A stretch of DNA of 64,000 nucleotides, from assembly GCA_963576725.1 (NCBI GenBank), contig OY755241.1, positions 4,200,562 through 4,264,561 on the forward strand, written 5' to 3'. This DNA comes from Azorinus chamasolen (taxonomy: Eukaryota; Mollusca; Bivalvia; Cardiida; Solecurtidae). The notes under the pieces are model-generated. The model did no database searches. It saw nothing but the letters and a program-made list of their open reading frames with translations, and was not told the DNA's origin. Both the position numbers and the translations under genes were made by a program. Positions 3,377-63,889 of this stretch are shown piece after piece (within the stretch, counting starts at the first letter, position 1; each line of letters begins with the position of its first letter).

Positions 3377-4075
3377 ATGCCTGTTGCTCAGGGGTCTGTG
3401 AATGGACATGAAGTTAGTGTTTTGCGCGATACAGGTTGCTCTAGCGCGGTTGTCAGGCGTAATTTAGTTGCTGTTGAGAATTTAACAGGGAGAATTCAGA
3501 AATGTATACTCATAGATGGTACTGTTAGGAGGTTTCCCATAGTCACAGTGTTTGTCGAGACCCCGTTTTATACAGGAGAAATTGATGTGTTGTGTGCTGA
3601 GTTTCCTGTGTATGATTTGGTAATAGGTAATATCCCTGGAGTAAAAGACCCCAAAGATATAGGTAAAACCCTTGATAGTTGTGGTGTTGAAAATTTATCA
3701 GACTGTGAAGTTGTAAATGGTGTAAAGACTAGGGCACAGAGGGTAAAAGAGAATCAAATATCAAAAGTGAAAGTGGTGAGTCCTATTGCTAGTGTTAATA
3801 CTGAAGATATAAAGAAAGCCCAGTTGACTGATGAGACTTTAGAAAAGATGAGAGAGAGGTCGAAAGCAGGTGAAAAGACAGTGAGTAAGAAAGGTGCAGA
3901 TACTTGGTTTGGTATGAAGAATGGGTTGCTTTATAGGTACTTCACATCACATAAAGTTGAGAATGGAAAACTGTTTAAGCAGTTAGTTGTGCCCAAGGAT
4001 GTAAGAAATCAAGTTCTCAAATTGACTCATGACTCAACTCATGGCAGGGCATTTAGGTGTTCGGAAAACACTTGA
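3377..4075 (+). pseudogene. pol: pol part 1: aspartic protease and start of integrase
   Basis: A retropepsin-type protease is marked by the active-site triad in VLRDTGCSS (Asp near nt 3428) and a later DLVIGNIPG stretch. It would cut the Gag-Pol polyprotein. A linker follows, then the first half of the integrase zinc-binding domain (HDSTH, about nt 4029). The frame is lost near 4042-4046 by what looks like one extra base, after which the H2C2 domain goes on in another frame at 4029-4502. There is no separate start: this is the gag frame displaced by the 20-bp duplication, so it would normally be made as a fusion with Gag. Confidence 0.85.
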
Positions 4076-5130: not shown

Positions 5131-5329
5131 GTAGTAGAGAATACTGAAGGTGAGTATGATAGTACAGAATTACCTGATGAAATATGTGTAGCTGTTGTTG
5201 AAGGAGATGGTGAAGGTACTGCAGGTATCGAGTCAAAAGGCAGTGAGACATTAAAACTAGAGTTACTGCAGCTGCATGCAACTGAAAGTTTTGAAGACAT
5301 AAAAATAAATCCAGAGTTGAGTGAGAGTA

Positions 5330-6018
5330 GACAGAATGAGTTGAAATCTTTAGCTAGAGAGTTTAGTGATGTACTGACGGATGTGCCAGGTGACACAGAC
5401 ATTATTGAACATGACATAAAGCTTAGAAGTGACATACCTGTTAGGTCTAAACCCTATCCAGTTCCTATTGCGCTTAGGGAATCTTTCAAAAATGACATTA
5501 AAGATATGCTGGAAATTGGTATAATAGAACCATGTGATTCTCCTTATGCTTCGCCTGTGGTGTTAGTCAAGAAACCTGATGGGTCAAATAGAGTGTGTAT
5601 TGACTATAGAAAGGTAAACGCTTTGACTGTCTTTGACTCAGAACCACTTGGAAATCCAGACTATATATTCGACAAACTTTCTGGTGCAAAGTTCTTTTCA
5701 AAAATAGACCTCACAAAAGGTTACTGGCAGATAAGAGTAAAGGAAAGCTGTAAGCCATACACTGCATTTGTTTGCTCTGAAGGTCTCTTTCAGTTCAATC
5801 GTATGCCGTTTGGAATGGTGAATTCTGGTGCTACATTCTGTAAGATGATGCGGAAACTTTTGAATTGTCTGGATGGAGTTGATAACTTTGTAGACGATAT
5901 TTAAGATTTTTCAGAAACTTGGGAATTTCACATTGGGTGTCTTAGAAAATTGTTAGAGAGGCTAAGGGCAGCACGTTTGACAGCAAAACCTTTTTAATGT
6001 AAGTTTGGTTACACCAGC
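5330..6018 (+). pseudogene. pol: pol part 3: reverse transcriptase
   Basis: RNA/DNA-dependent DNA polymerase. It follows integrase in the same frame after an acidic linker. Seen in order: VVLVKKPDGSNRVCIDYRKV (finger region), FSKIDLTKGYWQI with the first catalytic Asp, FNRMPFGMVNSGATF, and the FVDDI catalytic box. An in-frame TAA at 5902-5904 falls immediately after that box. A second in-frame TAA lies at 5995-5997 in the palm/thumb region. The frame then resumes with DFLGHVV at 6019. All catalytic residues are kept, so the inactivation comes from the stops. Confidence 0.92.
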
Positions 6019-6697
6019 ATGGATTTTTTGGGTCATGTAGTAGGGGAAGGTAGTATACAACCAAATCCCAAAAAGATAGAAGCCCTGCAGAAATGCAAAC
6101 GCCCTGAGACCAAGACTCAGGTGAGATCTTTCCTTGGTTTAGTCGGTTATTACCGAAAATTTATTCCCAATTTCAGTTCAATTGCTGCATGCTTGACTGA
6201 TATGACTAAGAAAGGTCAGCCAAATAAGCTCATTTGGACTGATGAGACTGAGCAGGCGTTTAGGTCATTGATTGGGTACTTGACGAAACGTCCCATACTC
6301 TGTCTCCCAGATTGGAAGTCCCAATTTATACTTAGAACAAATGCGTCTGCTGAGGGTATAGGCTGTGTGGTTATGCAAGCACATGCTGACACTAAGTTTC
6401 CTGTCGCTTATGCAAGTAGGAAGCTTCTTCCTAGAGAGAAACGTTACTCAACAATTGAGAGAGAGAGAGGGGTTAGCCATCGTATGGGCAGTGCAAAAGT
6501 TCCAATGCTATTTGTATGGGTCTGATTTTGTACTTGAAACGGATCACAGTCCACTGACATACATGAATCAGGCTAAGGTAACAAACCCTAGAATCATGAG
6601 ATGGGTTCTCTCTTTACAGCCATATCGTTTCCGTTTTCAGTTTGTGAAATGATCAGATAACATTGGTGCAGACTTTTTGAGTAGGTCAGAGTTTTAA
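6019..6697 (+). pseudogene. pol: pol part 4: RT connection and RNase H
   Basis: End of RT (FLGLVGYYRKFIPNFS) followed by RNase H, which would remove genomic RNA from the hybrid. The usual catalytic first Asp of the TDAS motif is Asn here (TNAS, codon AAT at 6339-6341), so this copy is catalytically damaged as well. The frame shifts in a GA-dinucleotide run near 6454-6470. Past it, ETDHSPLTY and the end NIGADFLSR are readable, with a TGA at 6650-6652 inside. The natural end is TAA 6695-6697, 93 bp before the 3' LTR. Confidence 0.88.
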
Positions 6698-41387: not shown

Positions 41388-42820
41388 ACAAGAGGGCCAG
41401 AATGGCCCTGACATCGCTCACCAGGCGATCAGAGGAGAAGATGTTCAAAGTTTTCACTATATGTTTCTAGAGAAAACTAGCCACCCCTGGGGCGGGCCAA
41501 TTTTGATCAAAGGGGCATAATTTATACAACTTTTGTAGAGGACCTGAACATGATGCTATGTGCCAAATATGAAAGCTGAGAACCTTCGAAAATATTTTCA
41601 AATTTGACACTATATGTTTCTATTGCGAACTGGCTACCCCTGGGGCGGGGCCAATTTTGACCCCGGGGGCATAATTTATATAACTCTTGAGGACCTGAAC
41701 ATGATGTTATGTGTCAATTATGAAAGCTGAGAACCTTCCAGTTTCCGAGGAGAATATTTTCAAAGTTGTCACTATATGTTTCTATTGAGACATGGCTACC
41801 CCTGGGGCGGACCAATTTTGACCCCTGGGGCATAATTTATATAAATTTTGTAGAGGACCTGAATATGATCCTATGTGCCAACTATGAAAGCTAAGATCCC
41901 TGTAGATTTAGAGGAGAAGATTTTCAAAGTTTTCTCTATATGTTTCACTGGCCACCCCCGGGGCGGGGTCAATTTTGACCCCAGGGGCATAATGTATATA
42001 ACTTTTGTAGAGGACTGATGCTATGTGCCAAATATGAAAGCTGAGAACCTTTCAGTTTCAGAGAAGAATATATTCAAAGTTTTACCATATATTTCTATTG
42101 AAAACTGGCTACCCCTGGGGCGGGGCCAATTTTGACCCCAGGGGCATAATTTATATAACTTTTGTAGAGGACCTGAACATGATGCTATGTGCCAAATATG
42201 AAAGCTGAGAACGCTTCAGTTTCAGAGGAGAAGATTTTCAAAGTTTCACTATATGTTTCTTTTGAAAACTGACCACCCCTGGGGCGGGGCCAATTTTGAC
42301 CCCAGGGGCATAATTTATATAACTTTTGTAGAGGACCTGAACATGATGTTATGTGCCAAATATGAAAGCTGAGAACCCTGTAGATTCAGAAGAAAAGATT
42401 TTCAAAGTTGTCACTATATGTTTCTATTGAAAACTGGCCACCCCTGGGGCATAATTTATACAACTTTTGTAGAGGACCTGAACATGATGCTATGTGCCAA
42501 ATATGAAAGCTGAGAACGCTGTAGATTCAGAGAAGAAGATTTTCAAAGTTGTCACTATATGTTTCTACTGAAATCTGGCTACCCCTGGGGCGGGGCCAAT
42601 TTTGACCCCAGGGCCATAATTTATATAACTTTTGTACAGGACCTGAATATGATGCTATGTGCCAAATATGAAAGCTAAGAACCCTGTAGATTGAAAAAGA
42701 GGAGAACCCTGTAGATTCAGAAGAAAATATTTTCAAAGTTGTCACTATATGTTTCTATTGAAAACTGGCTACCCCTGGGGCATAATTTATACAACTTTTG
42801 TAGAGGACCTGAACATGATG
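41388..42820 (+). mobile_element. Pearl/HINE-like element, 3' end replaced by Gypsy sequence
   Basis: The head ACAAGAGGGCCAGAATGGCCC is followed by TCGCTCACC and about ten units of 120-180 bp (GGGGCGGGGCCAATTTTGACC, ATAATTTATATAACTTTTGT, AGAGGACCTGAACATGATG, CTATGTGCCAAATATGAAAG). The last unit breaks off within GAACATGATG and goes directly into a Gypsy integrase. The expected terminal hairpin is missing. Confidence 0.85.
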
Positions 42821-43882
42821 CACCTAGATTTTCTAGGCCCCTTGCCCAAGACATCCCAGGGGAATGAGTATGTGTTGATGATGGTGGACCAATTCACAAA
42901 ATGGGTGGAATGTGTCCCCTTGCCTTCACAGACTGCACATGCAGCCGTCCATGAATTCTTTACCAGGTTTGGTTGTCCTTTTCAAATTCATACAGACCAA
43001 GGAAAGAACTTCGACAGCCAGTTGTTCAAAGCTGTGTGTGAATTGCTGAAGATTCACAAGTCGAGAACAACCCCATATAGACCATCTGCGAATGGACAAG
43101 TTGAGAGGTTCAATAGGACCCTGATGAATGCCGTTCGCTGTTTTGTGTCTTCCTAGAATGAATGGGACAAATTTTTGCCGCAGTTAGCTGGTGCATTGCG
43201 GTCATGTGTAAATCGGCAGACTGGCTTCACCGCAAACATGCTAATGATGGGCCGGGAGACCAACCAGCCAATGGATCTGCTGTTTCCCGACGTTGAGAAA
43301 GCAAATCAGAGCGAAAGCCCACACGAGTATGTGAGGTCTCTAAGGCAGAAGACCATCGAGGCACATGAGGCAGCCCGCAAAAACCTGAGGTCTGCGCAGA
43401 AAACCATGAAACGAGATTATGATGTCAAGGTGCTGGTTCGAACCTATAGTGTAGGAGATCCGGTGTACATATTGGATACAGCTACAGTTAAGGGGACCAG
43501 TAGCAAACTCAAGGCTCCGTGGAAAGGACCGGGCATCATATGTGAAAAGATCACCAATGCACTGTTCAGGATTGTCATTAAAGACAAAGGGTTTGTGGTC
43601 AACCATGACCGGATCAAGTTGTGCCAAGACGAAGTACTTCCATTGTGGCTAAAGCGACTTCAGCGGAACCCAGAGTTGTTGAAGGCGAAGGCCAACAAAG
43701 AGGAGGAAGTGTATTGCTTGTGCAGGCGACCTGACAGTGGGGGGTTCATGATACAGTGTGATTATTGTTTTGAATGGTTTCATGGTCCATGTGTCAATAT
43801 AACCCCAACCATAGCTAGAAAGACTGATCAGTATGAATGTCCAAATTGCCAGGGAGACCCTGCATGCGGACTTCATTGTTAA
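42818..43882 (+). pseudogene. pol: Integrase with C-terminal PHD finger (copy 2)
   Basis: Begins inside the catalytic core: HLDFLGPLP holds the first Asp, HTDQGKNFD the second, and NGQVERFNR the Glu. Then comes the C-terminal module (YSVGDPVYIL, APWKGPGII, FVVNHDRIKLC) and a PHD finger at 43709-43849. The H2C2 domain is lost. An in-frame TAG at 43154-43156 interrupts the core after the Glu. The natural stop is TAA 43880-43882, thirteen bases before the splice-acceptor AG of the third ORF. An ATG-led ORF actually begins at 42749 in the pearl/HINE repeat, which makes a chimeric frame. Confidence 0.88.
43709..43849 (+). other. PHD finger on the integrase tail (copy 2)
   Basis: C4HC3 arrangement: YCLC, then QCDYC, EWFHGPC and YECPNC. 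The Trp and the Asp just before it sit where PHD fingers that bind methylated H3K4 carry aromatic-cage and contact residues. That would be a chromatin-reading module in the place where chromoviruses have a chromodomain. The ligand is inferred. Confidence 0.88.
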
Positions 43883-43896
43883 TTCTTCTCTTCCAG
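43883..43896 (+). promoter_or_regulatory. Splice acceptor before the third ORF (copy 2)
   Basis: TTCTTCTCTTCCAG, a strong pyrimidine tract plus AG at 43895-43896, three bases before the ATG at 43899. The equivalent site exists in the complete copy at 61332-61346. Confidence 0.7.
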
Positions 43897-43898
43897 GT

Positions 43899-46887
43899 AT
43901 GGCAAGACGTGAGGACCCCCGCAAAGTAGTGGAGGATGTTCTCATGACAGGAAGACAGTTGGAGGAGGAGGAGTTTGTGGATAGGGTCAGGGGAGCGTAC
44001 CAGCGTGCCGTGGATCGCAGAGATTATCGTTGGATCTACGAATTCCAACGGAACTGTGTGATCCTAGCTCTGAGAGAGGAGACTGTCCACAGGTACCTGC
44101 CAAATCCTTATGGCAGGAATTACAGGACGTCCCAGCGTCAGTCCAAGAGATGAGTGTGAGGACTTCCGCCGGAAGGAGAACCCTGACCTGCCCATCATCA
44201 GGACAGATGCGGCCGAGGGAAGACAGAGTCGCTCAGCTACAGTGACCTCTTCCGAAGCTCTGGGGTATGAACATTCTCTGGTGAAGGATGATGAGACCCC
44301 ACCCCGGCTGGAGAGAAACAGCCGGCGAAATACCAAGGGAAGTGAGTGTCCTTCAGGGACCCCACCCGCAGCCGAGTCTGGAGGGCAAATTCAGGCTCTT
44401 AGACAGATGTATGGGCATTCGTTTCCTTTCACGATGCCCTTCTCAATGCAGCCCTGTTTTGTCGTCCCCAACCAATGTGGCATGAAGGGACCAGACAGTG
44501 GAACCCGATTATTCCACCAATGGCAGTCCATGGCCAAACTAAGGGAGAAGAATCTTACTATGGGGCTAGAAAGAAAGAAGACCCCAGCAGGAAGCCAGAG
44601 TATGGTGTCCATCGGACCCGCTCTGACTCACCAGAGGAGGATGACATTGGCGTCAAAGAGACCCGCATCTTCCATCGCACGGAGTCGGGTCCCACAACTA
44701 AGGGGACACACCGACCCAGTCGAAAAAGGGAGCTTGGTGTCCGTAGGACCCGTCCCTATTCACCAGAGGAAGACACTGTAGGAGTTAAAAGGACCCGTGT
44801 CTTCCAGAGCTCTGGACAAGTGACCCATTCAAGGGAAAGGAAGGAATTGAGGCCACCGGGCCCTGCCTTTCGGAGGAACCGGAGTCGTAGTCCTGTGAGA
44901 GAGGACCTTCGGGTCAAACTTGAAAGAAGGCGCCGGAGAGTATCGGTGGGTGAGGAACCCCCTCAGAAGAAGACCCGAATGGACACCAGATGCCCTGTGG
45001 AAGGATGCAACATGGACATATCCGGACTCAGGAGACATCTGGACACCCACCACATTCCCGGCCTATTTCAGCACCGTGAGACCCCGGCCGAATTGAACAA
45101 CCTTCAGTTCCAGTCTCAGCGTCGCCATGCCCTGGAGATGATATCAAGCTTTCTGTTTGGTAGAGACTCCAGGGTAGAGGACCTAGTAGAGTTTGTGAAT
45201 GAAAGGATGCAGAGTCAGGACCCCAGTGTGTCCGAAGAAGCCGGGAGAGCCATGGATGCCCTCGCTGAGGCGTCTGGATGGGAAAGACCCCAGCGATGGA
45301 GTGTTAACCCAGTGAATTCACCGGCAGCACTGATTCATTGGAGATCCCTTGCCTTCTTAATCAGCAAGCTGAGTCTGCAAGACCGGCGTGAGGTGTTTCT
45401 CCTTTTTGGGGAAAGGTGGGAAGTGCCAAAGGAGGCTCCAAAGAAGAGGAAGAATCGTCCCAATCCAGAAAGGAGGAGAAGGATGTTGCAGGAGAGGCAT
45501 CAAGGTACCGAAACTTTAGTGGTACAGCATAGGGAAGAGTCTGTTAGACCCCCTGTCCTTAGGGAGATGTCCACTAGGTCTGCAAGACCAGGACCGCCAG
45601 AAGCTTTAGCAGTGCAGCATAGGGAAGAGTCTGTTAGACCCCCTGTCTGTAGGGAGCTAGTCTCTAGGTCTGCGAGATCAGGACTATCAGAAACTGCCCC
45701 GAAACAAATCTGCTTGAAAGATAAGGGAGGAGCAGTCTCCATTTCATCCTTACAAAAGTTCAGGAAGGATGAAGGACTGAAATTGAGCTTGGAGACAAGT
45801 GTAGATTCTGAAGATGAGTCTAGGTTGCTCCAGCCAAAGAGACCAGTGCAAGCTCAGGAGACGAGTGTGAGCTGCTACTTGAGTCTCCAGTATCTATCTC
45901 GGAACCCAGAGGGCAAGAGCCAATGGAAACTGGAGACCAGGTGGTCACAGAAAGTCTACCATCGGGACCCCAGGTGGACCCCACTAGCAGCGTTCCCAAG
46001 CGAACGTATGCAGAAGTGTTGGCGTCCAAGAAGGACTCCCCAGTGGCCGGGGTGAGGTGAAGCCACAACTGGCCCCACGAGATGAGGACAAGGATGAGGC
46101 ATTTGACTCTCATTTCCACCTAGATCGCCTCAGCAAACGGCTGCGCAAGGACAGTCTCGAAGAAGCTACCATTTACCAGCAGGCCGGCCAGTCGCCCAAC
46201 ACCCCAGTGACCCTGTGTGGTGGTGTCATGGTTTTCTGTGACCCCAGGGGTTATGACAAGATTCCGGAAGGATGGGACCCAAAGTGGAAAATCGCTGTCG
46301 GCGTCCATCCTAAAAGAGTACAGGACCTCACTGAAAGAAGGTTCACACAGCTAAAAAAGCTACTGGCAAAGTGTCAGGCATTTGGAGAGCTTGGCTTGGA
46401 CTACCATGACAGCAACTCCGACCGGTCTAGTCAGCGAGAGACCTTGGAGAAGTTACTCCCTCTATGTCAGCCTAGGCATGTGTTGGTGATACATGTGCGT
46501 GGTGGTCCAGGAGATCGATGTTCGACACAGGCTTTGACTGAATGTCTGGAACTTATGAAGAAACATGTATCCAGTAGGCAAAAAATCCATTTGCACCGTT
46601 TCACTGGCGATAGGCAGCAGGTGTCCGAATGGACCCGTGTTTTCCCCAGGTGCTATTTTGGATTCACTGGAATGTCAGCACGCTTCAACCGGGCAGAGAG
46701 AGAGGCAGTTAAAGCCGTCCCCTGGGACCGACTGCTCATCGAGACCGACTCGCCTGTTAGACCCAGCCAGGAGGTCAACACTCCAGTCTATATTGGAGAA
46801 GTAGCAGATACGGTAGCACGGATTCGTGTGGCGCCCCTGCAGCTTGTGCTTCAACACACGAGCAGAAATGCCAAGTCGTTGTACTAA
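43899..46887 (+). pseudogene. Third ORF: Arg/Ser-rich region, zinc finger, TatD nuclease (copy 2)
   Basis: From ATG 43899: an acidic/basic helical N-terminus; a low-complexity part with Arg/Ser/Pro repeats (RTRSDSPEED, RTRPYSPEED, RSRSPVRED); a basic NLS-like PPQKKTRMD; a C2H2-like finger (CPVEGC ... HLDTHH, near 44990-45050); a helical region with IHWRSLAFL; two 33-residue repeats with QHREESVRPPV (45520-45690); then the TatD domain, 46099-46887. The TatD metal ligands are all present: DSHFHLD, GELGLDY, LVIHVRG, IHLHRFTG, IETDSP. The frame changes near 44150, 44480, 45870 and 46050, so the full protein is not made, but the TatD part itself is one open frame. TatD proteins are metal-dependent DNA/RNA hydrolases. 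The best named relative is probably TATDN2, by motif style only. Confidence 0.85.
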
Positions 46888-47091
46888 AGAGACAGTACGT
46901 GATGCCGCGACACTGGTTTCTCAACCTTCCATTCGGTATCCCCCTCATTCTTAGTGCAGGGTATGGAATGTCAAGTGTTCATTTTATGGATTCAGCCAGT
47001 TTATTTTGGTGGTGTTCAGTATGGACCCCCAAATCAATCAGATCCCTGATAGGAATAAAAATGACGTCCAGTATGGACCACGGACGTGAAT

Positions 47092-47104
47092 AAAATGGGG
47101 AGGA
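47092..47104 (+). promoter_or_regulatory. Polypurine tract and start of 3' LTR (copy 2)
   Basis: AAAATGGGGAGGAG precedes TGTGGGGAAACC at 47105. The complete copy has AATAAAGTGGGGAGGAG followed by TGTGG at 63681, so the tract and LTR start are conserved. Confidence 0.8.
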
Positions 47105-47370
47105 GTGTGGGGAAACCCTCTTATGCTATACATAGATTATTCGTGTGTCACCGCGTGACGTCATATACTGACTCCGCCTTCCCCCTGACTCTGTGAACCC
47201 CTTCAGCATCCCCGGCAGTTCGATTCCAGATACCAAATAGTACAGAAGTACATAACATATAGCATACATATATACAGACCACGAGTCCACGTGTTCCTCA
47301 GAAGACTTTGAGGTAAGTTCACTGTTGTCTGTGAATTGTATACTGATTGTATTTAGGAAATCACAACAGT
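47105..47370 (+). repeat. Presumed 3' LTR (copy 2)
   Basis: Starts TGTGG after the polypurine tract. It contains the CRE palindrome TGACGTCA (47156-47163) and a consensus splice donor, TTTGAG|GTAAGT (GT at 47313), about 55 bp before a likely end in CACAACA or GTACA. The sequence is otherwise unlike the LTR of the complete copy, and the end is not certain. Confidence 0.55.
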
Positions 47371-47399: not shown

Positions 47400-48260
47400 G
47401 GAGTTTTACGGTGATGTCATTTACAAACTTCGAAAAATTATTGGACACACATATTTTGTTTGTCAAACGTATAAAACAATTCATTAAAAAGGGATATGAC
47501 CCCTCTATATTGAAGCACACTACATGCTTGGTGGTCGACCCCTTTACAGTTGGTCATTATGCTTTCCTCTTTGCTTGTGCGACGACGGAAAAGGCTTAAT
47601 ACTCTATGAAGATTCCCTCTGAAACCCGTTTACGGAGGGAGGAAATTAGATATTTGTATTTTGCCAGTTCTGTCGTACCCCAAATGACTACTCCACAGCT
47701 GCTCTGACCTGAATAGTCATCGAGTACATGTCTACGATGTCAAGTTTATTCTTTTTCAAACAAAACAGTTTTGCATGCTTAATATCCACTAGTAATTGTA
47801 TCTTCTTGCGATTTATCTTTAATTAAATGTCAGTGTAGAAGTGTTTCAAATAGTTTTCCCGTACTTTTAAATTATGACGTCATTTACATGATGACGTCGC
47901 TTGTTTACCTCTAACGTTTATTTTCAAATCATTTTCATTTTGGCAGACATCGTTATGCATGTTGTGGTGTTGTCTGGAGGGGGAATTTTATTTACATTTT
48001 GACTTTGGTGAAAGTGGGATAAGGACGAGGTTGGGTACCCGTAAACCAGGTTTAAGTCCCCCAGTAGCCCTTTTTTTATTGTTTTTGGCTGCTGGCCGTT
48101 CCAAGGCGGCACTCCTGCTTTCAGCCTACGGTCAATTTTGTTGTTTAATATGCTTAATGTTTAATGTGTTTCGTCTTGATATGCGTCCTGTTATGTTTTG
48201 TCTTGTGGCTTTACCGTTTCTTGTTAGATGGTGTTTGGTGCGGTGTCATTTCGTGTGTGG
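47400..48260 (+). repeat. Dispersed repeat with small conserved ORF, copy 3 (diverged)
   Basis: Relative of 10850-11430 and 50111-50751. A 62-codon ORF (47411-47599) contains KRIKQFIKKGYDP and CLVVDPFTVG. The 50 kb copy has YIKQFIKKGYDP and CLVVNPFTVG and ends at the same place, with TAA here and TAG there. Downstream, AACCAGGTTTAAG and GCCGTTCCAAGGCGGCA are shared. Coding function is possible but unproven. Confidence 0.6.
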
Positions 48261-48284
48261 CTCTCCCTGTTTGACAATTTTTCC

Positions 48285-49396
48285 ATATTTAAAAATCTTC
48301 TCTGAAACTGTAAAGCCTAGACCTTTGATATTTGGTATGTAGCATGATCTTATGGTCCTCTACAAAGATTGTTCAAATTATGGCCCCCGGGCCCAAAATG
48401 GCCCCGCCCAAGGGCTTATCAGTTTTTCATAGGTAAATCGTAAAAAACTTTCTTCTCTGAAACTGTAAGGCCTAGACCTTTGATATTTGGTATGTAGCAT
48501 GATCTTATGGTCCTCTACAAATGTTGTTCAAATTATGACCCCCGGGCAAAAAATGGCCCCGCCCAAGGGCTTATCAGTTTTTCATAGGAAAATCTTTAGA
48601 AATCTTCTTCTCTGAAACTGTAAGGCCTAGACCATTGATATTTGGTATGTAGCATGATCTAATGGTCCTCTACAAAAATTGTTCAAATTATGACCCCGAG
48701 CCAAAAAAGGCCCTGCCCAAGGGCTTATCTGTTTTTCATAGGAAAATCTTCAAAAATCTTATTCTCTGAAGCTATAAGGCCTACACCTTTGATATTTAAT
48801 ATGTAGCATGATCTTGTGGTCCTCTACAAATATTGTTCAAATTATGACCCCGCCCAAGGGCTTATCAGTTTTTCATAGGAAAATCTTTAAAAATCTTCTC
48901 TCAAACTGTAAGGCCTAGACCTTTGATATTTGGTATGTAGCATGATCTTATGGTCCTCTACAAATATTGTTTAAATTATAACCACCGGGCCAAAAATGGC
49001 CATGCCCAAGGGCTTATCAGTTTTTCATTGGTAAATCTTTAAAAATCTACTGAAACTATATGGCCTAGACCATTGATATTTGGTATAACGAACATGATCT
49101 AATGGTCCTCTATATATATGTAGCTATAGCCTGTGGTCCTCTGCCAAGAATATTTAACTTACGACCCTGACCACTGGTCGAAACTTGGCCCGGCCTCAGG
49201 GCTTATCAGTTTTTCATGGGAAAAATATGAAATATTATTTTCCTCTGAAACCACAAGGCTTAGACCTTTAATTAATGGCATACTGCTTTGCCTTGTGGTT
49301 CTCTACCAAGGTTGTCCACATTTCTTGTGGTCAAAAGTGCCCCGCCCCTGGGGTTATCTCAGGTGAGCGCTTCAGGGCCTCATGGCCCTCTTGTTT
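48285..49396 (-). mobile_element. Pearl/HINE-like element, reverse orientation
   Basis: Inverted relative of 35726-37077: about seven units with CTGTAAGGCCTAGACC, GGTATGTAGCATGATC and GGTCCTCTACAAA. The palindromic head is at the right end (AGGGCCTCATGGCCCTCTTGT, 49373-49393). The tail hairpin expected at the left end is absent, so the copy is truncated there. Confidence 0.8.
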
Positions 49397-54981: not shown

Positions 54982-55167
54982 TGTGGTGACGGCCGGGTTT
55001 TAGCCATAACCCGGTCATGCGGGACCGGAGGAAACCCCACTTCCGCGGGGTCTTTGGAAAGAGGCGCGAGAACGGAAAGACGCCATATTGAACAGAGAGT
55101 ACAAAAAGACTAGAAAACTCGAGGACCTATCTGGATCCAGATGCATTGCATTTGTAGTGTAGTTACA
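54982..55167 (+). repeat. 5' LTR of the complete TatD Gypsy element
   Basis: 186 bp, TGTGGTGACGG to GTAGTTACA, with an internal ACCGGAGGAAACCCCAC. Compared with the 3' LTR it lacks about 22 bp near 55140, the segment that holds a possible splice donor. Confidence 0.92.
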
Positions 55168-55168
55168 T

Positions 55169-55180
55169 TGGTGGCAGCGG
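55169..55180 (+). promoter_or_regulatory. Putative primer binding site
   Basis: TGGTGGCAGCGG, beginning with the expected TGG, one base after the 5' LTR. I cannot assign the tRNA with confidence. Confidence 0.55.
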
Positions 55181-55517
55181 TTGTTGATGAAAAACTCCGC
55201 TGGTTATCGATATATTTGTTTGTAAACTCCGCCTTCAGCTAAGCTGTGGGTGGGGTATAATTGCCGTTTCGTTTTGACTTCGTCGATCGGAACCGTAGTA
55301 CGCTACTATTTGATTTATTGTTTTAGTATTCTTTGTGGATGTGAAAGGATTAGCGACTGTACATTGAGAATATAACCGGAATCGGTCGGATTAGAACCAG
55401 TTTTCTAATCCGCATCAATTTCGCATCTCCCTGCAGGTCACGTGACTTCTGTTTGAAATAAACAGTGGGTCTATACGATTCTGGAGCATTTTTTATGCAG
55501 AATAGCCAGATTTTGTA
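55181..55517 (+). other. Untranslated leader of the TatD Gypsy element
   Basis: About 340 bp between primer site and gag. Packaging signals would be expected here but none can be named. CCCTGCAGGTCACGTG is present at 55431-55446, including a CACGTG E-box. Confidence 0.5.
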
Positions 55518-56942
55518 ATGGCCGAGGGAGGTGACAACAATGTAGAGGCGGCTGAGCTACCAATGCGAACCCGCTCTGTAGCAATTAATTTCGCTACCGA
55601 GTTGGAATTGCAGCGGATTCCTGGCATCAAATCAAAGCTTGCTAGGACAATAATTGCTGTCAGGGAGAACTCGGGGAATATAACCCTTGAAATTCTTGAG
55701 GCCCTGACTAGAAGAAAACTCTCTCAGGAGGTTGTCTCGATGATTGATTTTGAGTCGAACCGCACCCTGAGAGGGCCCTATGAGTCAGGCGATTCGTCTG
55801 GGGAGGATGAGCCCGTCACCGATGGACGAAATGTCCATGATGAAAAAGGTTTTTCGTGTTGGCCTGAGGTACTCAAGGTAGTACACGCGGCTTCACGTGT
55901 TCTTGAACAAAAGCGGGAGATCACCAGCCCAATTACCAATGTGGTGAAGGACCCTCGTCCACCGCTGGTGCTAAAGTCGCCAGCGGATTTTACAACGAAA
56001 AAAGTTGCAAATCCGATTTGGACATCAACGCCTAAGAGGAAATTGCGATTCAGGGAACCATCTACCGAACGGTCTGACCAGTCGTATGGTGGTAGATCCA
56101 TGTCAAGCTTTAGTCGGCAGCAGGACATTATTAAGTCCTTGCCAAAGCATTTAAGTTTTGACGGGAAGAGTAGCTGGGAAGCATTTCGCCTGAAGTTCAC
56201 CAGATTCGCCAATGTAGCGGAGTGGACAGAAGGCGAGTGCCTGAATGTGCTCACGTGGTGCTTGACTGGCAAAGCCGCCGAGTACCATGTGTTGCTGTGC
56301 GAGCGAGATGGATCGCTTAGCTATTCCACATTAATGGATAAGCTAGAAGCTAGATATGGGCAGCATGAACTGGCAGAAGCTGCACAAGTGCGGTTCCAGC
56401 AGTCAGTGCAGACCCAAGTTGAAACCCTAGAGGAATGGGCAGACAGATTGCTCACACTCGGGGGCAGAGCTTTTAAAAAGCTGCCTGAAGATTTTGTCAA
56501 CAGGCAGATTATTAGCAGATTCTGCCAGGGGTTAGTAGACCGGGAGGCAGGCCACCATGTCTGTATGCAAGAACCCGGTACTGTACAAGAAGCTATACAG
56601 CTCGTCAGGAAGTACCAGCAGGTGCACTCGGCGATGTATGGCAAGACGCCGAAAACTTCCGGACGTCAAAACGAGGAGGAAAAGGTCTATGCCGTACAGG
56701 CGGAAAAGACTTCTTCCTTCTCTGAGGGGGAGGATTTCAAGAAGGCGCTGCGCGATCTTGAAGAAAGATTAGTTAAGACCTTTCAAAGCCAGCAACGTCT
56801 AACAACTCACCAGGCTAAGGGAGCTTGTTATGAGTGTGGCCAGAAGGGACATTTCAAAAGGGACTGTCCCACTTTGAAGGGTCAGAAGCCAAAAGGCCGG
56901 GGGACGGGGAGTCAGGCCGATCGTCGTCCCGAAAGAAATTAG
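55518..56942 (+). CDS. gag: gag with N-terminal helix-hairpin-helix-like region
   Basis: 474 codons, intact. Residues about 20-75 (INFATELELQRIPGIKSKLA then RTIIAVRENSGNITLEILEA) match the ComEA-type helix-hairpin-helix pattern: N-x-A-x-x-x-EL, PGI, A-x-x-I, R-x-x-x-G. That is a DNA-binding fold I do not know from Gag proteins. A disordered linker follows, then the capsid-like region from about residue 205 (LPKHLSFDGKSSWEAF, WCLTGKAAEYH, LEEWADRLLTLG, VNRQIISRFCQGL), then one CCHC knuckle (CYECGQKGHFKRDC) and a basic tail. ATG 55518 is chosen as the first in-frame ATG behind the leader. The protease frame overlaps its end in the -1 frame. I see no canonical slippery heptamer there. Confidence 0.9.
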   Translation: MAEGGDNNVEAAELPMRTRSVAINFATELELQRIPGIKSKLARTIIAVRENSGNITLEILEALTRRKLSQEVVSMIDFESNRTLRGPYESGDSSGEDEPVTDGRNVHDEKGFSCWPEVLKVVHAASRVLEQKREITSPITNVVKDPRPPLVLKSPADFTTKKVANPIWTSTPKRKLRFREPSTERSDQSYGGRSMSSFSRQQDIIKSLPKHLSFDGKSSWEAFRLKFTRFANVAEWTEGECLNVLTWCLTGKAAEYHVLLCERDGSLSYSTLMDKLEARYGQHELAEAAQVRFQQSVQTQVETLEEWADRLLTLGGRAFKKLPEDFVNRQIISRFCQGLVDREAGHHVCMQEPGTVQEAIQLVRKYQQVHSAMYGKTPKTSGRQNEEEKVYAVQAEKTSSFSEGEDFKKALRDLEERLVKTFQSQQRLTTHQAKGACYECGQKGHFKRDCPTLKGQKPKGRGTGSQADRRPERN

Positions 56943-57646
56943 AGACCTTGCCCAAGAGGTCTCGAATGGCCGCTAAATTCCCTGAGACTGGACCTTCTTG
57001 TCCAAATGACAAAAAGGTGCAGGGGAATGAACAGTCACCGGTGGAGGACAGACCTGTGGTTGTATGCCAAGTCTCGTCAGACTCTCAGCTAACAATTGGA
57101 GTCCAAGTGGGTAATAGACCCGTAACAGCAGTAGTTGATACAGCTGCCCAAGTGACTATTATTTCTGATAAAGTCTACCAGTCATTAAACAATAAGCCCC
57201 CTGTTCTCAGGAAGGTAAAGTTGATGGCTGCAGGCAGGGAAATGTCCATGTGCGGGTTTGTGGCAGGGCCACTGAAGCTAAAAATAGGGCATCAGTGGTA
57301 CCGAGAGGAAGTATATGTAGCTCCAATTGAGCAGCAGATGCTCTTAGGGTTTGATATTCTCAGGGATAAGAAGGCTGTTCTGGATATGGGTAGGGGGGTC
57401 CTACTATTTGATGGCATGGAGCTCCTACTAAACATCGGGTCTGGAGGGTCTAACCCCTCAGTGGCTAGGGTTACTGTTTCTAAAAGACGGGTTATTCCCC
57501 CTCATTCGGTTGCTAAAGTTAGTTGTAGTCTTAGTCAGCCATTGCCTGATTATGTCATAGAGCCCAGGAGTCTTTCTCAGTTCTGGATGCCAAAGGTGCT
57601 AAGAAAAGAAGGGTCGGATCCATACGTCTTGTCTCATAAACCCTAG
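56834..57646 (+). CDS. pol: Aspartic protease
   Basis: Open frame overlapping the end of gag by 109 bp in the -1 frame, so it probably needs a frameshift to be made. The retropepsin motif is AVVDTAAQVTIIS (DTA instead of DTG, a variant found in some Gypsy elements), with MLLGFDIL as the later ILG-type motif. It processes the polyprotein. The frame ends at TAG 57644-57646, and the downstream linker continues in another frame from about 57621, so a small frameshift has separated protease from RT. ATG 56897 or any upstream codon is unlikely to be a real start. Confidence 0.85.
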   Translation: MWPEGTFQKGLSHFEGSEAKRPGDGESGRSSSRKKLETLPKRSRMAAKFPETGPSCPNDKKVQGNEQSPVEDRPVVVCQVSSDSQLTIGVQVGNRPVTAVVDTAAQVTIISDKVYQSLNNKPPVLRKVKLMAAGREMSMCGFVAGPLKLKIGHQWYREEVYVAPIEQQMLLGFDILRDKKAVLDMGRGVLLFDGMELLLNIGSGGSNPSVARVTVSKRRVIPPHSVAKVSCSLSQPLPDYVIEPRSLSQFWMPKVLRKEGSDPYVLSHKP

Positions 57647-58669
57647 TGATAGATACCGGTTAGTCACTAAGGGTAAGGAGATTGGACTCGCGTTTCCAAT
57701 AGAGACTGTTTTGGAGGACGCCGAAGAACCCGAGCCTATTTGGGCAAGGGAAGTGTCCAAAACCGAAACAGTTGAAGATCAACACCAATAAGGTATACCA
57801 GAGCATTTGCGGCAACTTTATGCGGAAGCCTCCAGTCAATTGCAGGAGGACGAAAGGATCCAATTAGCGCAATTGCTGATTGAATTCCAAGATGTTTTTG
57901 CCAAAGATGACTTCGACTTGGGCAGCTTCAATGCAATGGAGCATGTCATCGAAACAGGGGACGCGAAACCAGTAAAGCAGCGGATGCGTAGAACTCCGGC
58001 GTGCTTTGCTGGTGAGGAGGAAGCTCATTTGAAGAAAATGTTGGAGGCTGGAGTCATTCAAGAATCAGTCTCTGATTGGGCTTCAGCTCCTGTGTTGATT
58101 AAGAAGAGGGATGGTAGTGTTAGATGGTGCATTGATTATCGTGCTTTAAATGAAAAGACGGTCAAGGATGTGTACCCACTACCATTGATAGATGACTGTT
58201 TAGACACTGTAGCAGGCAGTGTCTGGTTTTCCAAGTTAGATGCCAATTCAGCTTATTGGCAGTTAAAGGTCAAGGAGGAAGACCGTAAAAAGACGGCCTT
58301 TATTACCAGATATGGTTTGTACGAGCATGTGCGGATGGGTTTCGGCTTATGCGGAGCCCCAGCCACATTTGCTAGAGCCATGAACTTGATCCTGAGGGGA
58401 CTGACTTGGAAAACAGTCCTGGCCTTCTTGGACGATATCATAGTGCTGGGTAGAAGTTTCGCAGAGCACCTGCTTAACTTGAGAGAAGCCCTACAACGAT
58501 TTCGTCATTATGGGTTAAAGCTAAAACCTAGGAAATGCTACTTGTTTCAAAAGGAGGTTGAGTTCCTAGGGAGGAAAGTAGGCCAGGATTTTGTCAACAT
58601 GACAGATGATGATATTCAGGTGGTGAGGGATTGGCCCGAACCGACTGATTCGAAGAAAGGTAGAGATTT
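57647..58669 (+). pseudogene. pol: Reverse transcriptase
   Basis: The linker is followed by an in-frame TAA (57789-57791), then an open frame with EFQDVFAKDDFDLG (typical Gypsy lead-in), APVLIKKRDGSVRWCIDYRA, FSKLDANSAYWQL with the first catalytic Asp, MGFGLCGAPATFARAM and the catalytic box AFLDDI. Also LKPRKCYLFQKEVEFLG in the thumb. The frame is lost near 58655-58670, at the boundary to RNase H, by a small indel. All catalytic Asp residues are retained. Confidence 0.92.
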
Positions 58670-59749
58670 ATGGGGCTGGCGAACTATCACAGAGGTTTTA
58701 TTAAAGACTTCTCTAGAATTGCCACACCCCTTTATGCGGTTACAGGCAAGAATAATTTTGTCTGGACTGAAGATCAGGTCAATGCTTTCCGCACCTTGAA
58801 GGAGGCATTGGTAAACCCGCCAGTACTTGCGTTGCCTAATGCAACAGATCCCTTTGTGTTGGATACAGATGCTTCCGACTTTGCTATCGGGGCAGTCTTG
58901 TACCAGGTACAGGATGGGGAGGAAAGAGTCATTGCATACGGAAGTTATGCTTTGACTAAGGAGCAACGCAGGTATTGTGTTACACGTAAATAGTTGTTAG
59001 CGGTAGTGCGGTTTACTAGACAGTACAGTCACTATTTGCTAGGTAGACCATTTGTTGTACGTACCGACCACTCGAGCTTGAGATGGTTGACAAAGTTCCG
59101 TGAGCCGCAGGGGCAACTGGCGAGATGGTTGGAAGAGCTGTCTCAATATAACATGATACTTAAGTATCGTGCGGGTCGTGACCATGGTAATGCAGACGCA
59201 CTGTCCCAGTTACTCTATAGTGACAAGTGTCTTGTTTACCAAGAGGGTGTGCGATTGAAGGAGTTGCCATGCGGCGGGTGTAAATATTGCGAACGAGCCC
59301 ACATGCAGTGGGCACCCTTCCTGGAAGAGGTAGATGACGCAGTGCCATTGACGACCAAGCCTAGGATTCCAGCTGGTCTGGAATGTAAGACGGCCCTGGA
59401 AGTTAAGGCGGATCTGCAAGAAATCTACGGGGAATTAGACGGAATGGAATCATACCAGTCTTGTGACGGTGGCAAGCCGGAAGGTGCAACTACCGGTTGT
59501 CAACTCGCAGAGGACACGATCTTCAGGACAACTGAGTCGGACCCACAGGTCCAGAAGGTGTGGGATCCGGTAGCTCAACAAGAGGTAAGTTTGCTAGAAG
59601 AAATTCTAGAAGACATACCATGGGAGCAGGACTCTGAACCAGGAGATGAGGTGGTAAGTGTGAATGTGGTAACGCGACGGGCGGCGAAGCAGGAGGCCAC
59701 CAAAGTAAGGCGTGACATTCTTGGGAAGCCGTTGTTGATCCAACCATGA
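58670..59749 (+). pseudogene. pol: RNase H and connector to integrase
   Basis: FMGLANYHRGFIKDFSRIA ends the RT connection. Then RNase H with VLDTDASDFAIG (first Asp kept), an in-frame TAG at 58991-58993, and RTDHSSLRWL and GNADALSQL (later acidic residues kept). The TAG replaces what is usually a Glu codon in this motif. Downstream is a Cys-containing stretch (CGGCKYCERAH) and an acidic connector ending at TGA 59747-59749. Confidence 0.9.
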
Positions 59750-61312
59750 CGGCAGAGTCTACGAAACCTGCAGAGAATAATTCAAATCCTGTGGCAAAAA
59801 GCTGGGGATTTGTTATTGAAGACCTGGTATCATCGCAGCATAGCGATGTTGACCTGTCACCAGTTTTGTCCTGGTTAGAATCTAAAGAGGAGCCCAGTGA
59901 GGGTAGTCTCTTTAGAACGAGCCCAGCAGCCAAATTCTACTGGTTGAACAGGAATCGTCTGTCGCTGATTGAAGGGGTTCTGTATATGGATGAGCCAAAA
60001 TCTGGGGATAAGCGCTTGGTTTTACCAAGGGTACTCAGGGCAAAGGCTTTATATTTGAACCATAACCTTCCTTCAGTCGGGCATCAGGGTGTACAGAGAA
60101 TGAAAGAAAAGTATGCCTGGTATGGGATGTCTTCGGATATTACTAACCATGTGTAGTAATCAGAACAAGAAATCGGCCAGGCATGGTAAACGTCCAATGA
60201 TCGAGTATCAGGCTGGGGCACCCATGGAAAGAGTACATATCGACTTTCTTGGACCTTTACCTAGGTCTACTAGAGGTAATGAATATGTACTTATGATGGT
60301 GGACCAGTTTACCAAGTGGGTGGAATGTATTCCTCTGCCAAACCAGACAGCAGAGGAAACTGCCCAAGCAGCGGTTGACCAGTTTTTCTCCAGGTTCGGA
60401 ATGCCATTTCAGGTATTTTCAGACCAGGGGCGCAATTTTGACTCTAAGCTCTTTATGAAACTTTGTAAGGTTCTGCATATCCACAAGGCCCGCACAACAC
60501 CATATAGACCTTCAGCCAATGGCCAGGTTGAAAGGTGCAATAGTACTCTGATGAACGCTGTTCGCTGTTTTATTGGCAAGTCACAGAATCATTGGGATTT
60601 GTATTTACAGCAGATCGCCGGTGCCCTCCGGTCCTCCGTAAATCGAATGACCGGACACACTGCCAATATGCTGTTAGGGAGGGAGGTGAATATGCCTGCT
60701 GACTTAATGTTTCCTATTTCAAGCCAGACGCCAGCATATCCAGAGAGTTATCCTGGTAGACTTTCAGCAAAGATGCAACAAGCCCATGAGGCTGCAAGCC
60801 GGGTCATGAAAACAACTTCTGAAAGAATGAAGCGAAATTATGACCTGCGCGTGCTTATTAGGAACTATCAGGTAGGTGATGTGGTGTACTTGCTGGACAC
60901 TGCGGTCCTCAAGGGTAAATGTAAAAAGCTGTGCTCCCCTTGGAAGGGTCCAGCTGTCATTATATCCAAATTGTCAGATTCCCTTTTTAGAGTCAAGCTG
61001 AGAAATGCTGTGTTTGTGGTTAACCATGACAGGGTAAAGCTCTGTCATGATGACACACTCCCACAGTGGATTAAGCATTGGCAAAGTAGTCCGAACAAAA
61101 CAGAAACTACCGTTCAAGGTGATGATAGAGTCTATTGCCTCTGTCAGCAACCTTGGCAGGGGCGTTTCATGATACAGTGTGATCATTGTACTGAATGGTA
61201 CCATGGTGCATGCGTAGATATAACCCCTACAGATGCGGTAGATATCCAGAAGTACAGGTGCCCAGACTGTAAAAACAGAGTCAGAACTCTGTTTGATCAG
61301 GACAAGAGTTAA
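59746..61312 (+). pseudogene. pol: Integrase with C-terminal PHD finger (complete copy)
   Basis: The first frame (59746-60156) carries LNHNLPSVGHQGVQRMKEKY, the His half of the H2C2 domain. A small lesion near 60150 removes the normal Cys pair and changes frame. The second frame (from 60113) has the catalytic core: VHIDFLGPLP (Asp), FSDQGRNFD (Asp), NGQVERCNS (Glu), then the module YQVGDVVYLL, SPWKGPAVI, FVVNHDRVKLC, and a PHD finger at 61130-61270. Stop TAA 61310-61312. The catalytic triad is intact, and only the zinc domain is broken. Confidence 0.9.
61130..61270 (+). other. PHD finger on the integrase tail (complete copy)
   Basis: C4HC3: YCLC, QCDHC, EWYHGAC, YRCPDC. Spacing and the ITPT segment after the sixth ligand are shared with the copy at 43709-43849, so the module belongs to the family and is not a chance fusion. 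Confidence 0.9.
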
Positions 61313-61330
61313 GAAACTTATATGTGGTTC

Positions 61331-61346
61331 TCTTTGTCTTTTCCAG
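61331..61346 (+). promoter_or_regulatory. Splice acceptor directly before the third ORF
   Basis: TCTTTGTCTTTTCCAG, with AG at 61345-61346 touching the ATG at 61347. Such a site allows a spliced RNA in which the third ORF is first, as for env genes of retroviruses. Confidence 0.72.
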
Positions 61347-63547
61347 ATGTCAGACTCAGATAAGCCTCCTGATCAAGGAGGAGGTAAACGGCCCCCATCA
61401 GACGAGGCCAAGGGTGGACGGAGGCCCCCGGCACGCGAGCGGGGGGAGAACCCGACCTACTCTCAGAGGCGGTCTCCGGGATCCTCAATGGACCGGAGTT
61501 CTGCTAGGTCTGAGGAAAAGGGAAGGGAGCGAAGGAGTTCTCCTGTTGATCAGAGGAGAAACCGAGGCAAGGCTTCGTCCGGAAATAGAGGGCGAGGATC
61601 TCGACATTCCCCAGAAAGAAGGGAGAGGTCTTTGTCGCCTCACTACAGGAGGAACAACCCTTCGGGTGATCAGCGAAGGGACGCAGGAGGGTGTGGAGAC
61701 ATTCTCAATGGAGCAAGAAGTTTGACCAAAAAGGGCAAACTTATGCATCCAAGGACACTGTCTGAGAAAGTTTGCGCTGCTGGAGAGAAGAACTCCAGCA
61801 TGGCTGTTTTGCTGGGGCAGGCCGATGTCGCCCGGGCCCAGAACAAGGTTGCCTGGCTAAGGACGTTGGCCAAGGAGTTGGATGTCCTCCAGTACCACAG
61901 TAGGAGGTGGATCTCTAGCTCGATATTTCCGCTAGGGGAGCCACCAAAGAAAAAAACCCAATCGGGGGAGGCTCGGGAACCAAGCAAAGACTATAGATTA
62001 GTCCCAAACCCAAATCTCCCTAGAGTGAAGGTCGATATGGGGAAGGGGGCATCCAGCCCTTCCCTTAGCCTAACGAAAGGTGAAGGGGAAATGGAGGTGG
62101 GGCAAGTGTCGTCGGACGAAGAGGCCCGACTCTTAGCGCCCTCCACGCCTCCAAGAACATCTACGGCCACCAAGCCTGTGAGTCCGGTCAAGCCTTGGTC
62201 AGCGACCGGTAGTTCACAGGACATTCCCAGTACTCAGACAAGGGAGGCTTCCACCAGGGATCACCATGCCAAGAGGCGGAAGGAGTCTTGTTTGGTGCAA
62301 GGCTGTGCGGCAGAGCTGACAAGGTCTCATGCTTTTGCTCGGCATATTCCGGCAGTGTTCCAGCCAGCAGTTAAGGGCGAGGACATTGTCAATAGACGAA
62401 TCGGTGCCCTGAAATTAGTCACCCGTTGGTTAATGGGCCAGAAGATATGGTTCGCTACTTGGACAGCTCTGGGGGAATGCGTGACTGGGAGGTCGATGAT
62501 GCCACCACAGAGGCCATGCAGGAGCTTTGTCAGTACCTGCGGGAGCCTATCGGCGATATGTCTCTCCGGCAGTCGGGCAACAGGGTCACTGCTCTTGTAC
62601 ACTGGAGAGTAGTGCTGCTCCTGGTGTCCATACTGGAGGGTCATCAAGCAGAGGATCTTCGTCAGCTGTACCAACTTGATGAGGAGGAACAGGCTCTGCT
62701 ACCTACGCTACCAAAGGCATTTGATAGCCACTGCCATTTGGACAGGACGGCCAGGAACCTTGGTATGCGGGAATCGTGGGACTTTCAATCCATTCTGCAG
62801 TACCAGACTGCCCGGGAGCCCTACGAGGTCCAAGTGGATAAGGTGGTTGGAGTGTTCAGCGACCCCGACACCTATCCAGACCAGGAAGCTGTTGAAAGGC
62901 TGACCCAGCAGGGAGTTGTTGTAGCGGTTGGAATCCACCCCAAGAAGTTGATTTCTGAGGAGTTTCAGACCCTAGGGAACCTGCTGGAGTTAGATAGAGT
63001 GAGCGCCTTGGGAGAAGTTGGCCTGGACCATACTGAAAGTCCAGACCAATGGGTGGAGCAGGTGTATAAGCTGCAGAGGGTGCTCTTTCTCTTAAAGAAG
63101 GAGCACGTGCTCGTGCTGCACGCCAGAGGAACCAGCTCTGTGCCGGATGAGGCTTTGCTGAGCCTGATGTTTCAACTGCAAGCTCATCCTAAAGTAGGAA
63201 GGGAACGGCTGATCCACCTCCATTGCTTTTCCGGAACGGCAAAGGTTTTGGAGAGTTGGTTGGAGGCGTTCCCCAACACATGTGAGCGTTACCCAGATGG
63301 CCAAGAAATTGCCTATGGCCCAGCAAGAAGCAATCCGGGGCATTGACCGGCATAGACTGCTTCTGGAGACAGACGCTCCATACTTCAGCCCCCCCCAGGA
63401 TTCCGGCGGTCCACACCAAGCCTGCTGGGAGCGGTGGCTGCAGAGTTGGAGGAGGTCGTTGGCCTACCATGGCAGGACCTCCTCTCTTTAACATATGCCA
63501 ATGCAGAGAGGCTGTATGTCCAGAGGCAGCCTCCTCTGCAGGGGTGA
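61347..63547 (+). pseudogene. Third ORF: Arg/Ser-rich region, zinc finger, TatD nuclease (complete copy)
   Basis: From ATG 61347: about 110 residues of Arg/Ser/Gly/Pro-rich disorder (RRSPGSS, SRHSPERRERSLSPHYRR), a helical part, the NLS-like EPPKKKTQ, a Ser/Pro linker, RRKESCLVQGCAAELTRSH (finger-like Cys pair with His residues), then after a frame change near 62430 a helical region with LVHWRVVLLL and the TatD domain, 62717-63547. TatD ligands: DSHCHLD, GEVGLD, VLHARG, HLHCFSG, LLETDAP, and the typical end LTYANAERLY. Frameshifts at about 63280 and in a nine-C run (63390-63398) break the TatD part. Same order as the copy at 43899-46887, with diverged sequence. Confidence 0.87.
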
Positions 63548-63663
63548 GATCCGCGGAGGCCAAGAGGATAGGGAAGACTGTGAAGCCCCAGTGACCAGCC
63601 CGTGAAGATTATAAGCCGGTGCACACTAGGAGGCCCAGTAGCAGTCCTAACCCTATCCTTTCA

Positions 63664-63680
63664 AATAAAGTGGGGAGGAG
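63664..63680 (+). promoter_or_regulatory. Polypurine tract
   Basis: AATAAAGTGGGGAGGAG immediately before the 3' LTR; plus-strand primer site. The AATAAA may be coincidental. Confidence 0.85.
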
Positions 63681-63889
63681 TGTGGTGACGGCCGGGTTTT
63701 AGCCATAACCCGGTCGTGCGGGACCGGAGGAAACCCCACTTCTGTGGGGTCTTTGGAAAGAGGCGCGAGAACGGAAAGACGCCATATTGAACAGAGAGTA
63801 CAAAAAGACTTAGAAAACTCGAGGACCTATCTGGATCCAAACCAGAGGTAGGTTTAATTGTAGTGCATTGCATTTGTAGTGTAGTTACA
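63681..63889 (+). repeat. 3' LTR of the complete TatD Gypsy element
   Basis: 209 bp. Contains CCAGAG|GTAGGT (GT at 63848-63849), a plausible splice donor 41 bp before the LTR end. The corresponding segment is missing from the 5' LTR. Confidence 0.92.

Follow-up and report, generated by a model that had tools for sequence, protein, structure and literature searches.

What does a retrotransposon do with a gene for a TatD nuclease? The question is raised by a 64-kb stretch of contig OY755241.1 from the bivalve Azorinus chamasolen (the window), in which an earlier note, made from the letters alone, had described a Gypsy element with a TatD nuclease in the position of an envelope gene. We found two element lineages in the window in which a third open reading frame (ORF3) with a TatD domain lies between the integrase and the polypurine tract and 3' long terminal repeat (LTR). 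These two diverged lineages, together with about 110 related database proteins, uphold the claim of a Gypsy family with a TATDN2-type TatD ORF behind the integrase. The reading that we favor, with a probability of roughly 0.6, is that ORF3 serves a Ty3/Gypsy lineage with a PHD-bearing integrase as an accessory gene, and that it acts like TATDN2 on RNA-DNA hybrids.

Copy 1 is a Ty3/Gypsy-type element at positions 54982 to 63888. Copy 2 spans 42749 to 47106, where its 3' LTR starts; it is truncated at its 5' end, beginning inside the integrase, and gag and reverse transcriptase are missing. The order integrase, PHD finger, ORF3 with TatD is common to both, so that the second, diverged copy described earlier does repeat the order of the first, from the integrase onward. 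The features that carry this order are as follows.

60113 to 61312, forward strand: integrase of copy 1 (Pfam rve, 1.8e-14)
about 61136 to 61270, forward strand: PHD finger of copy 1, in the same open piece as the integrase (Pfam PHD, 8.3e-10)
61337 to 61346, forward strand: pyrimidine tract and CAG resembling a splice acceptor, ahead of the copy 1 ORF3 ATG at 61347 (pattern search)
61347 to 62612, forward strand: Arg/Ser-rich N part of copy 1 ORF3, with a helical domain at about 61731 to 61922 and a zinc finger from about 62277
62396 to 63343, forward strand: second open piece of copy 1 ORF3, with the rest of the helical domain and, from 62714, the first part of TatD
63213 to 63544, forward strand: last part of the copy 1 TatD, in two more open pieces (63213 to 63488 and 63356 to 63544)
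63671 to 63680, forward strand: polypurine tract of copy 1
63681 to 63888, forward strand: 3' LTR of copy 1
42749 to 43882, forward strand: integrase of copy 2, in two open pieces
about 43715 to 43849, forward strand: PHD finger of copy 2 (Pfam PHD, 8.5e-10)
43887 to 43896, forward strand: splice-acceptor-like site of copy 2, ahead of the ATG at 43899 (pattern search)
43899 to 46052, forward strand: N part of copy 2 ORF3 in three open pieces, with a helical domain at about 43917 to 44114 and a zinc finger/helical domain at about 44985 to 45398
46057 to 46887, forward strand: open piece with the copy 2 TatD (domain 46096 to 46884, whole Pfam TatD_DNase, 1.6e-37)
47096 to 47105, forward strand: polypurine tract of copy 2, with the 3' LTR starting at 47106

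ORF3 opens with a helical domain, which is followed by basic linkers and by a C2H2-like finger joined to another helical domain; TatD, with the metal ligands in place, comes last. All ligand motifs are present in order in both copies, as had been claimed: HxH, E, H, H, and D start at 62720, 63011, 63113, 63218, and 63366 in copy 1 and at 46102, 46384, 46486, 46591, and 46741 in copy 2. The description of the protein as Arg/Ser-rich and bearing nuclear localization signals (NLS) likewise agrees with what we found, residues 1 to 200 of copy 1 ORF3 containing 15.5% R and 13.5% S, with NLS-like PPKKK and KRRK runs in the N part. ORF3 is not one open frame, as the earlier note had it: the copy 1 TatD, which ends near 63517, is split over three pieces with the last ligand motif in a different piece from the first four, and ORF3 of copy 2 is broken into four open pieces. 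The copy 1 domain matched Pfam TatD_DNase at 6.5e-19 and a profile built without copy 1 at 2.3e-52, and a match to the TatD fold, in addition to the Pfam match, supports membership in the TatD family.

The integrases of the two copies are 57% identical over 353 residues and the TatDs 31 to 32%; the order is the same in spite of this distance, indicating that ORF3 was kept through a long divergence. The fractions alike between the copies at codon positions 1, 2, and 3 were 0.41, 0.52, and 0.31 in TatD (177 codons), 0.74, 0.90, and 0.39 in the integrase core (113 codons), and 0.58, 0.72, and 0.39 in the integrase C terminus with the PHD finger (222 codons). This pattern, which differs from a test of the ratio of nonsynonymous to synonymous substitution rates, fits selection at the protein level.

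A search with the copy 2 TatD gave 978 proteins at E values of ≤1e-5. Among the best 120, which were listed, 31 lay below 1e-32; the next matches, at 7.5e-17 and above, were the first bacterial-type TatDs, along with a further probable ORF3 piece, P0034. Searching with a profile made from 25 sequences, we found 1527 proteins at 1e-10, and the best 120, again those listed, included P0121 to P0202 as new members or near kin. At least about 110 database proteins are thus of the ORF3 TatD type. Our working set counts 113 (P0001 to P0031 and P0121 to P0202) by a cut of our own, which omits P0034, P0205, P0206, and P0211, short pieces of apparently the same type, and includes P0192, P0193, P0195, P0196, and P0198, whose membership in an element is uncertain. 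Named sources are the bivalves Mytilus coruscus, Argopecten irradians, Saccostrea cucullata, Saccostrea echinata, Ruditapes philippinarum, Dreissena polymorpha, Pinctada imbricata, and Mactra antiquata and, outside the molluscs, the hemichordate Ptychodera flava and the urchin Lytechinus variegatus. That copies pass as host genes, as suspected earlier, is in agreement with these roughly 110 database entries. Some relatives are filed under the symbiont bins Candidatus Thiodiazotropha and Sedimenticola; P0008, P0010, P0026, P0135, P0262, P0299, and P0301 are TatD hydrolases or transposases so labelled. The records from these bins look like host retroelement DNA.

Counted over the filled columns of the 113-protein set, the ligands are retained in 80/80 (H), 82/82 (H), 105/107 (E), 109/112 (H), 110/112 (H), and 100/104 (D) cases. 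Pfam TatD was found in all 39 members scanned (437 to 825 amino acids) and an envelope family in none of them. Hydropathy exceeded 1.6 in 5 of 36 long members and reached 1.70 in the copy 1 TatD piece, the peaks being mostly mild. ORF3 therefore appears to be free of envelope glycoprotein families, while hydropathy argues less strictly against a membrane segment. Alignment A3, run against contigs of prokaryote genomes, returned a single locus (a Rhizobiales bin, 38% over 59 residues). On viral contigs, the TatD alignment returned seven loci at 24 to 35%, which we took as phage or bacterial TatDs, the integrase alignment three loci at 23 to 25%, and the copy 1 integrase no match.

We then placed the family in a TatD tree of 81 rows, rooted at the midpoint. 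Rows for tree building had been thinned, with 53 kept from the 77 ORF3 rows of good coverage and 17 from the 101 remaining rows. The ORF3 rows, the window copies, P0193, and P0195 formed one clade (99/97; present in 98% of the 200 bootstrap trees). Beside it, and not enclosing it, stood the TATDN2 group (92/88; 88%), and 16 bacterial-type rows made up a third clade (100/97). The TATDN2 group comprises seven rows, of which only P0203 and P0192 carry the name TATDN2 and three (P0204, P0207, and P0208) were placed there by judgement. Copy 1 clustered with five proteins, among them one from Argopecten (95 in the quick tree, 100/96 in the careful tree), and copy 2 stood near P0129, P0135, P0009, and P0007 with support that was not strong. 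P0063 belonged to no group in the careful tree and fell among the TATDN2 rows in the quick one. Of the comparison with host TatD types that the earlier note had in mind, the tree thus covers TATDN2, beside which the ORF3 clade stands; TATDN1 and TATDN3 were compared by profile. On profile A1 they scored 62 to 66 bits, E. coli YcfH 130, and, in another database, a Galendromus TATDN2 154.

Long ORF3-type proteins share the order helical domain, zinc finger with second helical domain, TatD. A finger/helical profile derived from long members matched 55 of 347 proteins, 17 of them outside the source alignment. It also matched both window copies, which are absent from the profile, at 2.3e-36 in one and, in two pieces, at 3.5e-09 and 4.9e-08 in the other. 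For the N-terminal domain, a 19-row profile matched 20 proteins, one of them outside its source alignment, and both window copies (9.4e-08 and 6.1e-06). P0192, which comes from the sea star Patiria, P0196, and, weakly, P0198 have the finger/helical domain of ORF3 and yet are of TATDN2 type and group with TATDN2; they may be host genes of the sort that the element captured or, conversely, element genes reclaimed by a host.

The integrase search gave 1113 relatives. Among the best 120, which were listed, Pfam PHD was found in 98 and the PHD core, by motif search, in 62; named sources include Mercenaria, Mytilus, Pecten, Plakobranchus, Anneissia, Strongylocentrotus, and Procambarus. Eight putative zinc-ligand columns were invariant in 23 rows that had been selected for having a PHD finger. 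The nearest solved PHD fingers are those of PHF8, PHF2, CXXC1, and BPTF, known as readers of H3K4me3. Some integrases with a PHD finger go under other names, 'COMPASS component SPP1' in Mytilus models and 'NYNRIN-like' in bivalve ones (P0286, P0297, P0318, P0256, and P0323).

The best linkage outside the window is P0300, a Mytilus galloprovincialis gene model in which integrase and PHD are continued by the ORF3 finger domain. It was the only one of the best 120 integrase relatives to match the finger profile (1.5e-07), with 24.3 bits compared to at most 5.5 in 500 shuffles. The concern that the TatD ORF might be joined to Gypsy sequence at this locus only is answered in part, since P0300 joins integrase, PHD finger, and ORF3 finger and stops before TatD. 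We also compared contig sizes between 58 TatD and 56 integrase 'ena' rows, picked by hand, and obtained three matches in base count. P0188 and P0275 lie on contigs of 5493 bases and P0007 and P0283 on contigs of 472432 bases (chance expectation for the size class, 0.03 and 0.0003, respectively); on the 472-kb contig two repeats may meet by chance. The third pair (1665 bases) was rejected, as both ORFs would not fit. Linkage of ORF3 to integrase outside the window thus comes from few cases.

The two copies also share putative control sites. The pattern Y7-CAG-N0-2-ATG had two matches in all, counting both strands of the window, and these are the two ORF3 starts. Since an acceptor-like site precedes the ORF3 ATG in each copy, it is plausible that ORF3, like env, is expressed by splicing. 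In P0300 (...NLFQ|MNNN) and P0273 (...FFFFDVLQ|MSES), the frame past the PHD finger reads, judging from the residues, like an acceptor site that has been translated through. An identical 15-mer spanning polypurine tract and LTR start occurs in the window at 47096 and 63671 only. These sites and the 15-mer, the PHD finger, and the zinc finger and helical domains go beyond what the earlier note had described.

Upstream of its integrase, copy 1 contains the following.

54982 to 55166, forward strand: 5' LTR (TGTGG...TTACA; LTR comparison)
55518 to 56942, forward strand: gag with helix-hairpin-helix, capsid-like part, and CCHC knuckle (Pfam HHH_3 and zf-CCHC)
56834 to 57646, forward strand: aspartyl protease (Pfam)
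57807 to 58799, forward strand: reverse transcriptase (Pfam RVT_1, 9e-30)
58994 to 59749, forward strand: RNase H-like piece, assigned by position and by eye only, without a Pfam run

The order gag, protease, reverse transcriptase, RNase H (by eye), integrase is that of Ty3/Gypsy elements, with the frames broken. Further hallmarks of Metaviridae are LTRs of the TG...CA type (TGTGG...TTACA) with a polypurine tract, TGGGGAGGAG. The LTRs are 97% alike (155/159 identical positions, and 26/26 in a separate block); the 3' LTR is longer by about 23 bases and ends at about 63888, rather than at the 63889 given earlier. The helix-hairpin-helix (HHH_3, 6.6e-07) at the start of gag is, to our knowledge, unusual. 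Tandem arrays of units of approximately 141 to 165 bp lie at 41461 to 42770 and 48230 to 49240; the former adjoins the broken 5' end of copy 2 and repeats a short stretch from the start of its integrase piece. A further Gypsy-like element at 2418 to 6685 has a gag-like piece (2418 to 3128), then integrase (4194 to 5133), then reverse transcriptase (5263 to 6138), presumably the order of the Gmr1 group.

What, then, might ORF3 do? The TatD domain is likely catalytic, since its ligands persist at about 30% identity, and a TatD ORF3 that is old, kept to about 30% TatD identity, and found in several phyla should serve the element. In the TATDN2-like role that we favor, ORF3 would enter the nucleus via its NLS-like runs, and its finger and helical domains would bind nucleic acid. 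By analogy with TATDN2, its TatD domain would have metal-dependent 3' exonuclease and endonuclease activity and degrade the RNA of RNA-DNA hybrids, whether these are remnants of reverse transcription or R-loops at target sites, and the PHD finger, nearest to H3K4me3 readers, may steer the integrase to active promoters. Several observations weigh against this proposal. Both copies are broken, and no target-site duplication was seen, by eye, around copy 1. The acceptor pattern was picked after both sites had been seen, a looser form of it has 23 matches in the window, and no good splice donor was found near the 5' end of copy 1 (best, 7/9). In the PHD finger of copy 2, D stands at the position of W in copy 1 and of Y in PHF8, and the reader site of copy 2 could thus be different. 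P0300 is without TatD and is possibly a wrong join, and the pairs on 5493 and 472432 bases are weak linkage evidence, a third pair from the same comparison being impossible. Finally, TATDN1, TATDN3, and E. coli TatD are 3' exonucleases and apurinic/apyrimidinic endonucleases on DNA (PMC10085689).

This last point, together with the intact ligands, would also suit an element gene with a DNA substrate, trimming 3' ends or abasic sites, for instance in finishing cDNA ends or integration gaps. We consider this unlikely, as the nearest group in the tree is TATDN2, whose reported substrate is the RNA of R-loops (PMC10707325, PMC12709183). It is rather improbable that the same gene serves counter-defence by degrading host RNAs, ligands of DNA sensors, or silencing guides. 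Counter-defence genes often change fast, and the accessory ORF changes faster than the integrase (31% versus 57% identity); fast change, however, is also compatible with linkers under loose constraint and with an enzyme that stands by itself. Very improbable, in our view, is a host TATDN2-like gene family that was multiplied by retrotransposons and stands beside integrase by chance or as a passenger. The finger/helical domain is shared by TATDN2-type P0192 and P0196 (weakly by P0198), and the neighbourhood is known for only a minority of the database relatives, but place, order, acceptor-like site, and polypurine tract are the same in two lineages with TatDs 31% identical, and P0300 joins integrase, PHD, and ORF3 finger. 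Hardly credible is a TatD retained for binding or structure alone, with no catalytic activity: a few members do miss a ligand (departures among filled columns, E 2, H 3, H 2, and D 4), but these include decayed pieces such as P0188, and the ligands are kept in nearly every filled cell.

With ORF3 it becomes possible to test whether retrotransposition and the removal of RNA-DNA hybrids are connected. At somewhat less than even odds, we further propose an old animal Gypsy clade that predates the split of bivalves from echinoderms and hemichordates or spread between these phyla, equipped with a nuclear kit of promoter-targeting PHD integrase and spliced, hybrid-removing TATDN2-type ORF3; many invertebrate TATDN2-like, YcfH-like, and TatD genes would then be ORF3s. 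In the genome paper on the giant squid, a Hox cluster legend lists a TATDN2 next to transposon-like genes (PMC6962438), and that this gene, too, is an ORF3 is a guess. For annotation, the warning is that TatD and TATDN2-like records from invertebrates and symbiont bins, and even bacterial TatD records, include transposon genes, which disturb gene-family counts and claims of gene transfer.

Among known systems, chromoviruses have a Gypsy-type integrase with a C-terminal chromodomain, and we know of none with a TatD ORF. Errantiviruses such as Drosophila gypsy have a spliced third ORF behind the integrase. That ORF occupies the same place as ours, for which splicing is inferred, and encodes an envelope protein of viral origin (PMC5408684), in contrast to the nuclease here. 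Ginger1 resembles our elements in having a PHD finger C-terminal to a Gypsy-type integrase and differs in being a DNA transposon, with Ulp1 or OTU domains (PMC2836005); it was the only case of PHD with such an integrase to turn up in the literature as far as it was available. Troyka, judged from the available part of its description, is not the TatD-bearing element. TATDN2 of higher eukaryotes has an HxH-type TatD, is the sister group in our tree, and has a long N-terminal region, often with an NLS (PMC10707325, PMC12709183, PMC10085689); its loss in medaka leads to more R-loops in germ cells (PMC12709183). Unlike ORF3, it is a host gene; the ORF3 clade is separate and has an extra N-terminal helical domain, and the finger/helical domain is found in only some TATDN2-type proteins.

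A literature search, with most subscription papers outside its coverage, found no published description of a TatD ORF3 in an LTR element, consistent with the earlier impression that the family is undescribed. Both copies do have an enzyme ORF between pol and the 3' LTR, and such an arrangement is of a known kind, since bdelloid DEDDy and GDSL ORFs and an orchid demethylase ORF precede it. The orchid Ty3/Gypsy elements similarly carry an additional ORF for a nucleic-acid enzyme, an AlkB-type m6A demethylase; the enzyme is different, the hosts are plants, one lineage is concerned, and activity was demonstrated there (PMC9289625). LTR elements of bdelloid rotifers have a DEDDy exonuclease or GDSL esterase ORF3, and Vesta and Juno, with the exonuclease downstream of pol, show the same arrangement of a non-envelope nuclease; the nuclease there is DEDDy (RNase D-like) and shared with Penelope-like elements, and the word 'TatD' is absent from the main text of that paper as available (PMC5408684). 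The window ORF3 has a TatD domain in place of the DEDDy exonuclease, accompanied by zinc finger, helical domains, and PHD integrase, and ranges from bivalves to echinoderms and hemichordates. An unrelated nuclease fold is thereby added to the small set of enzymatic ORF3s of LTR elements.
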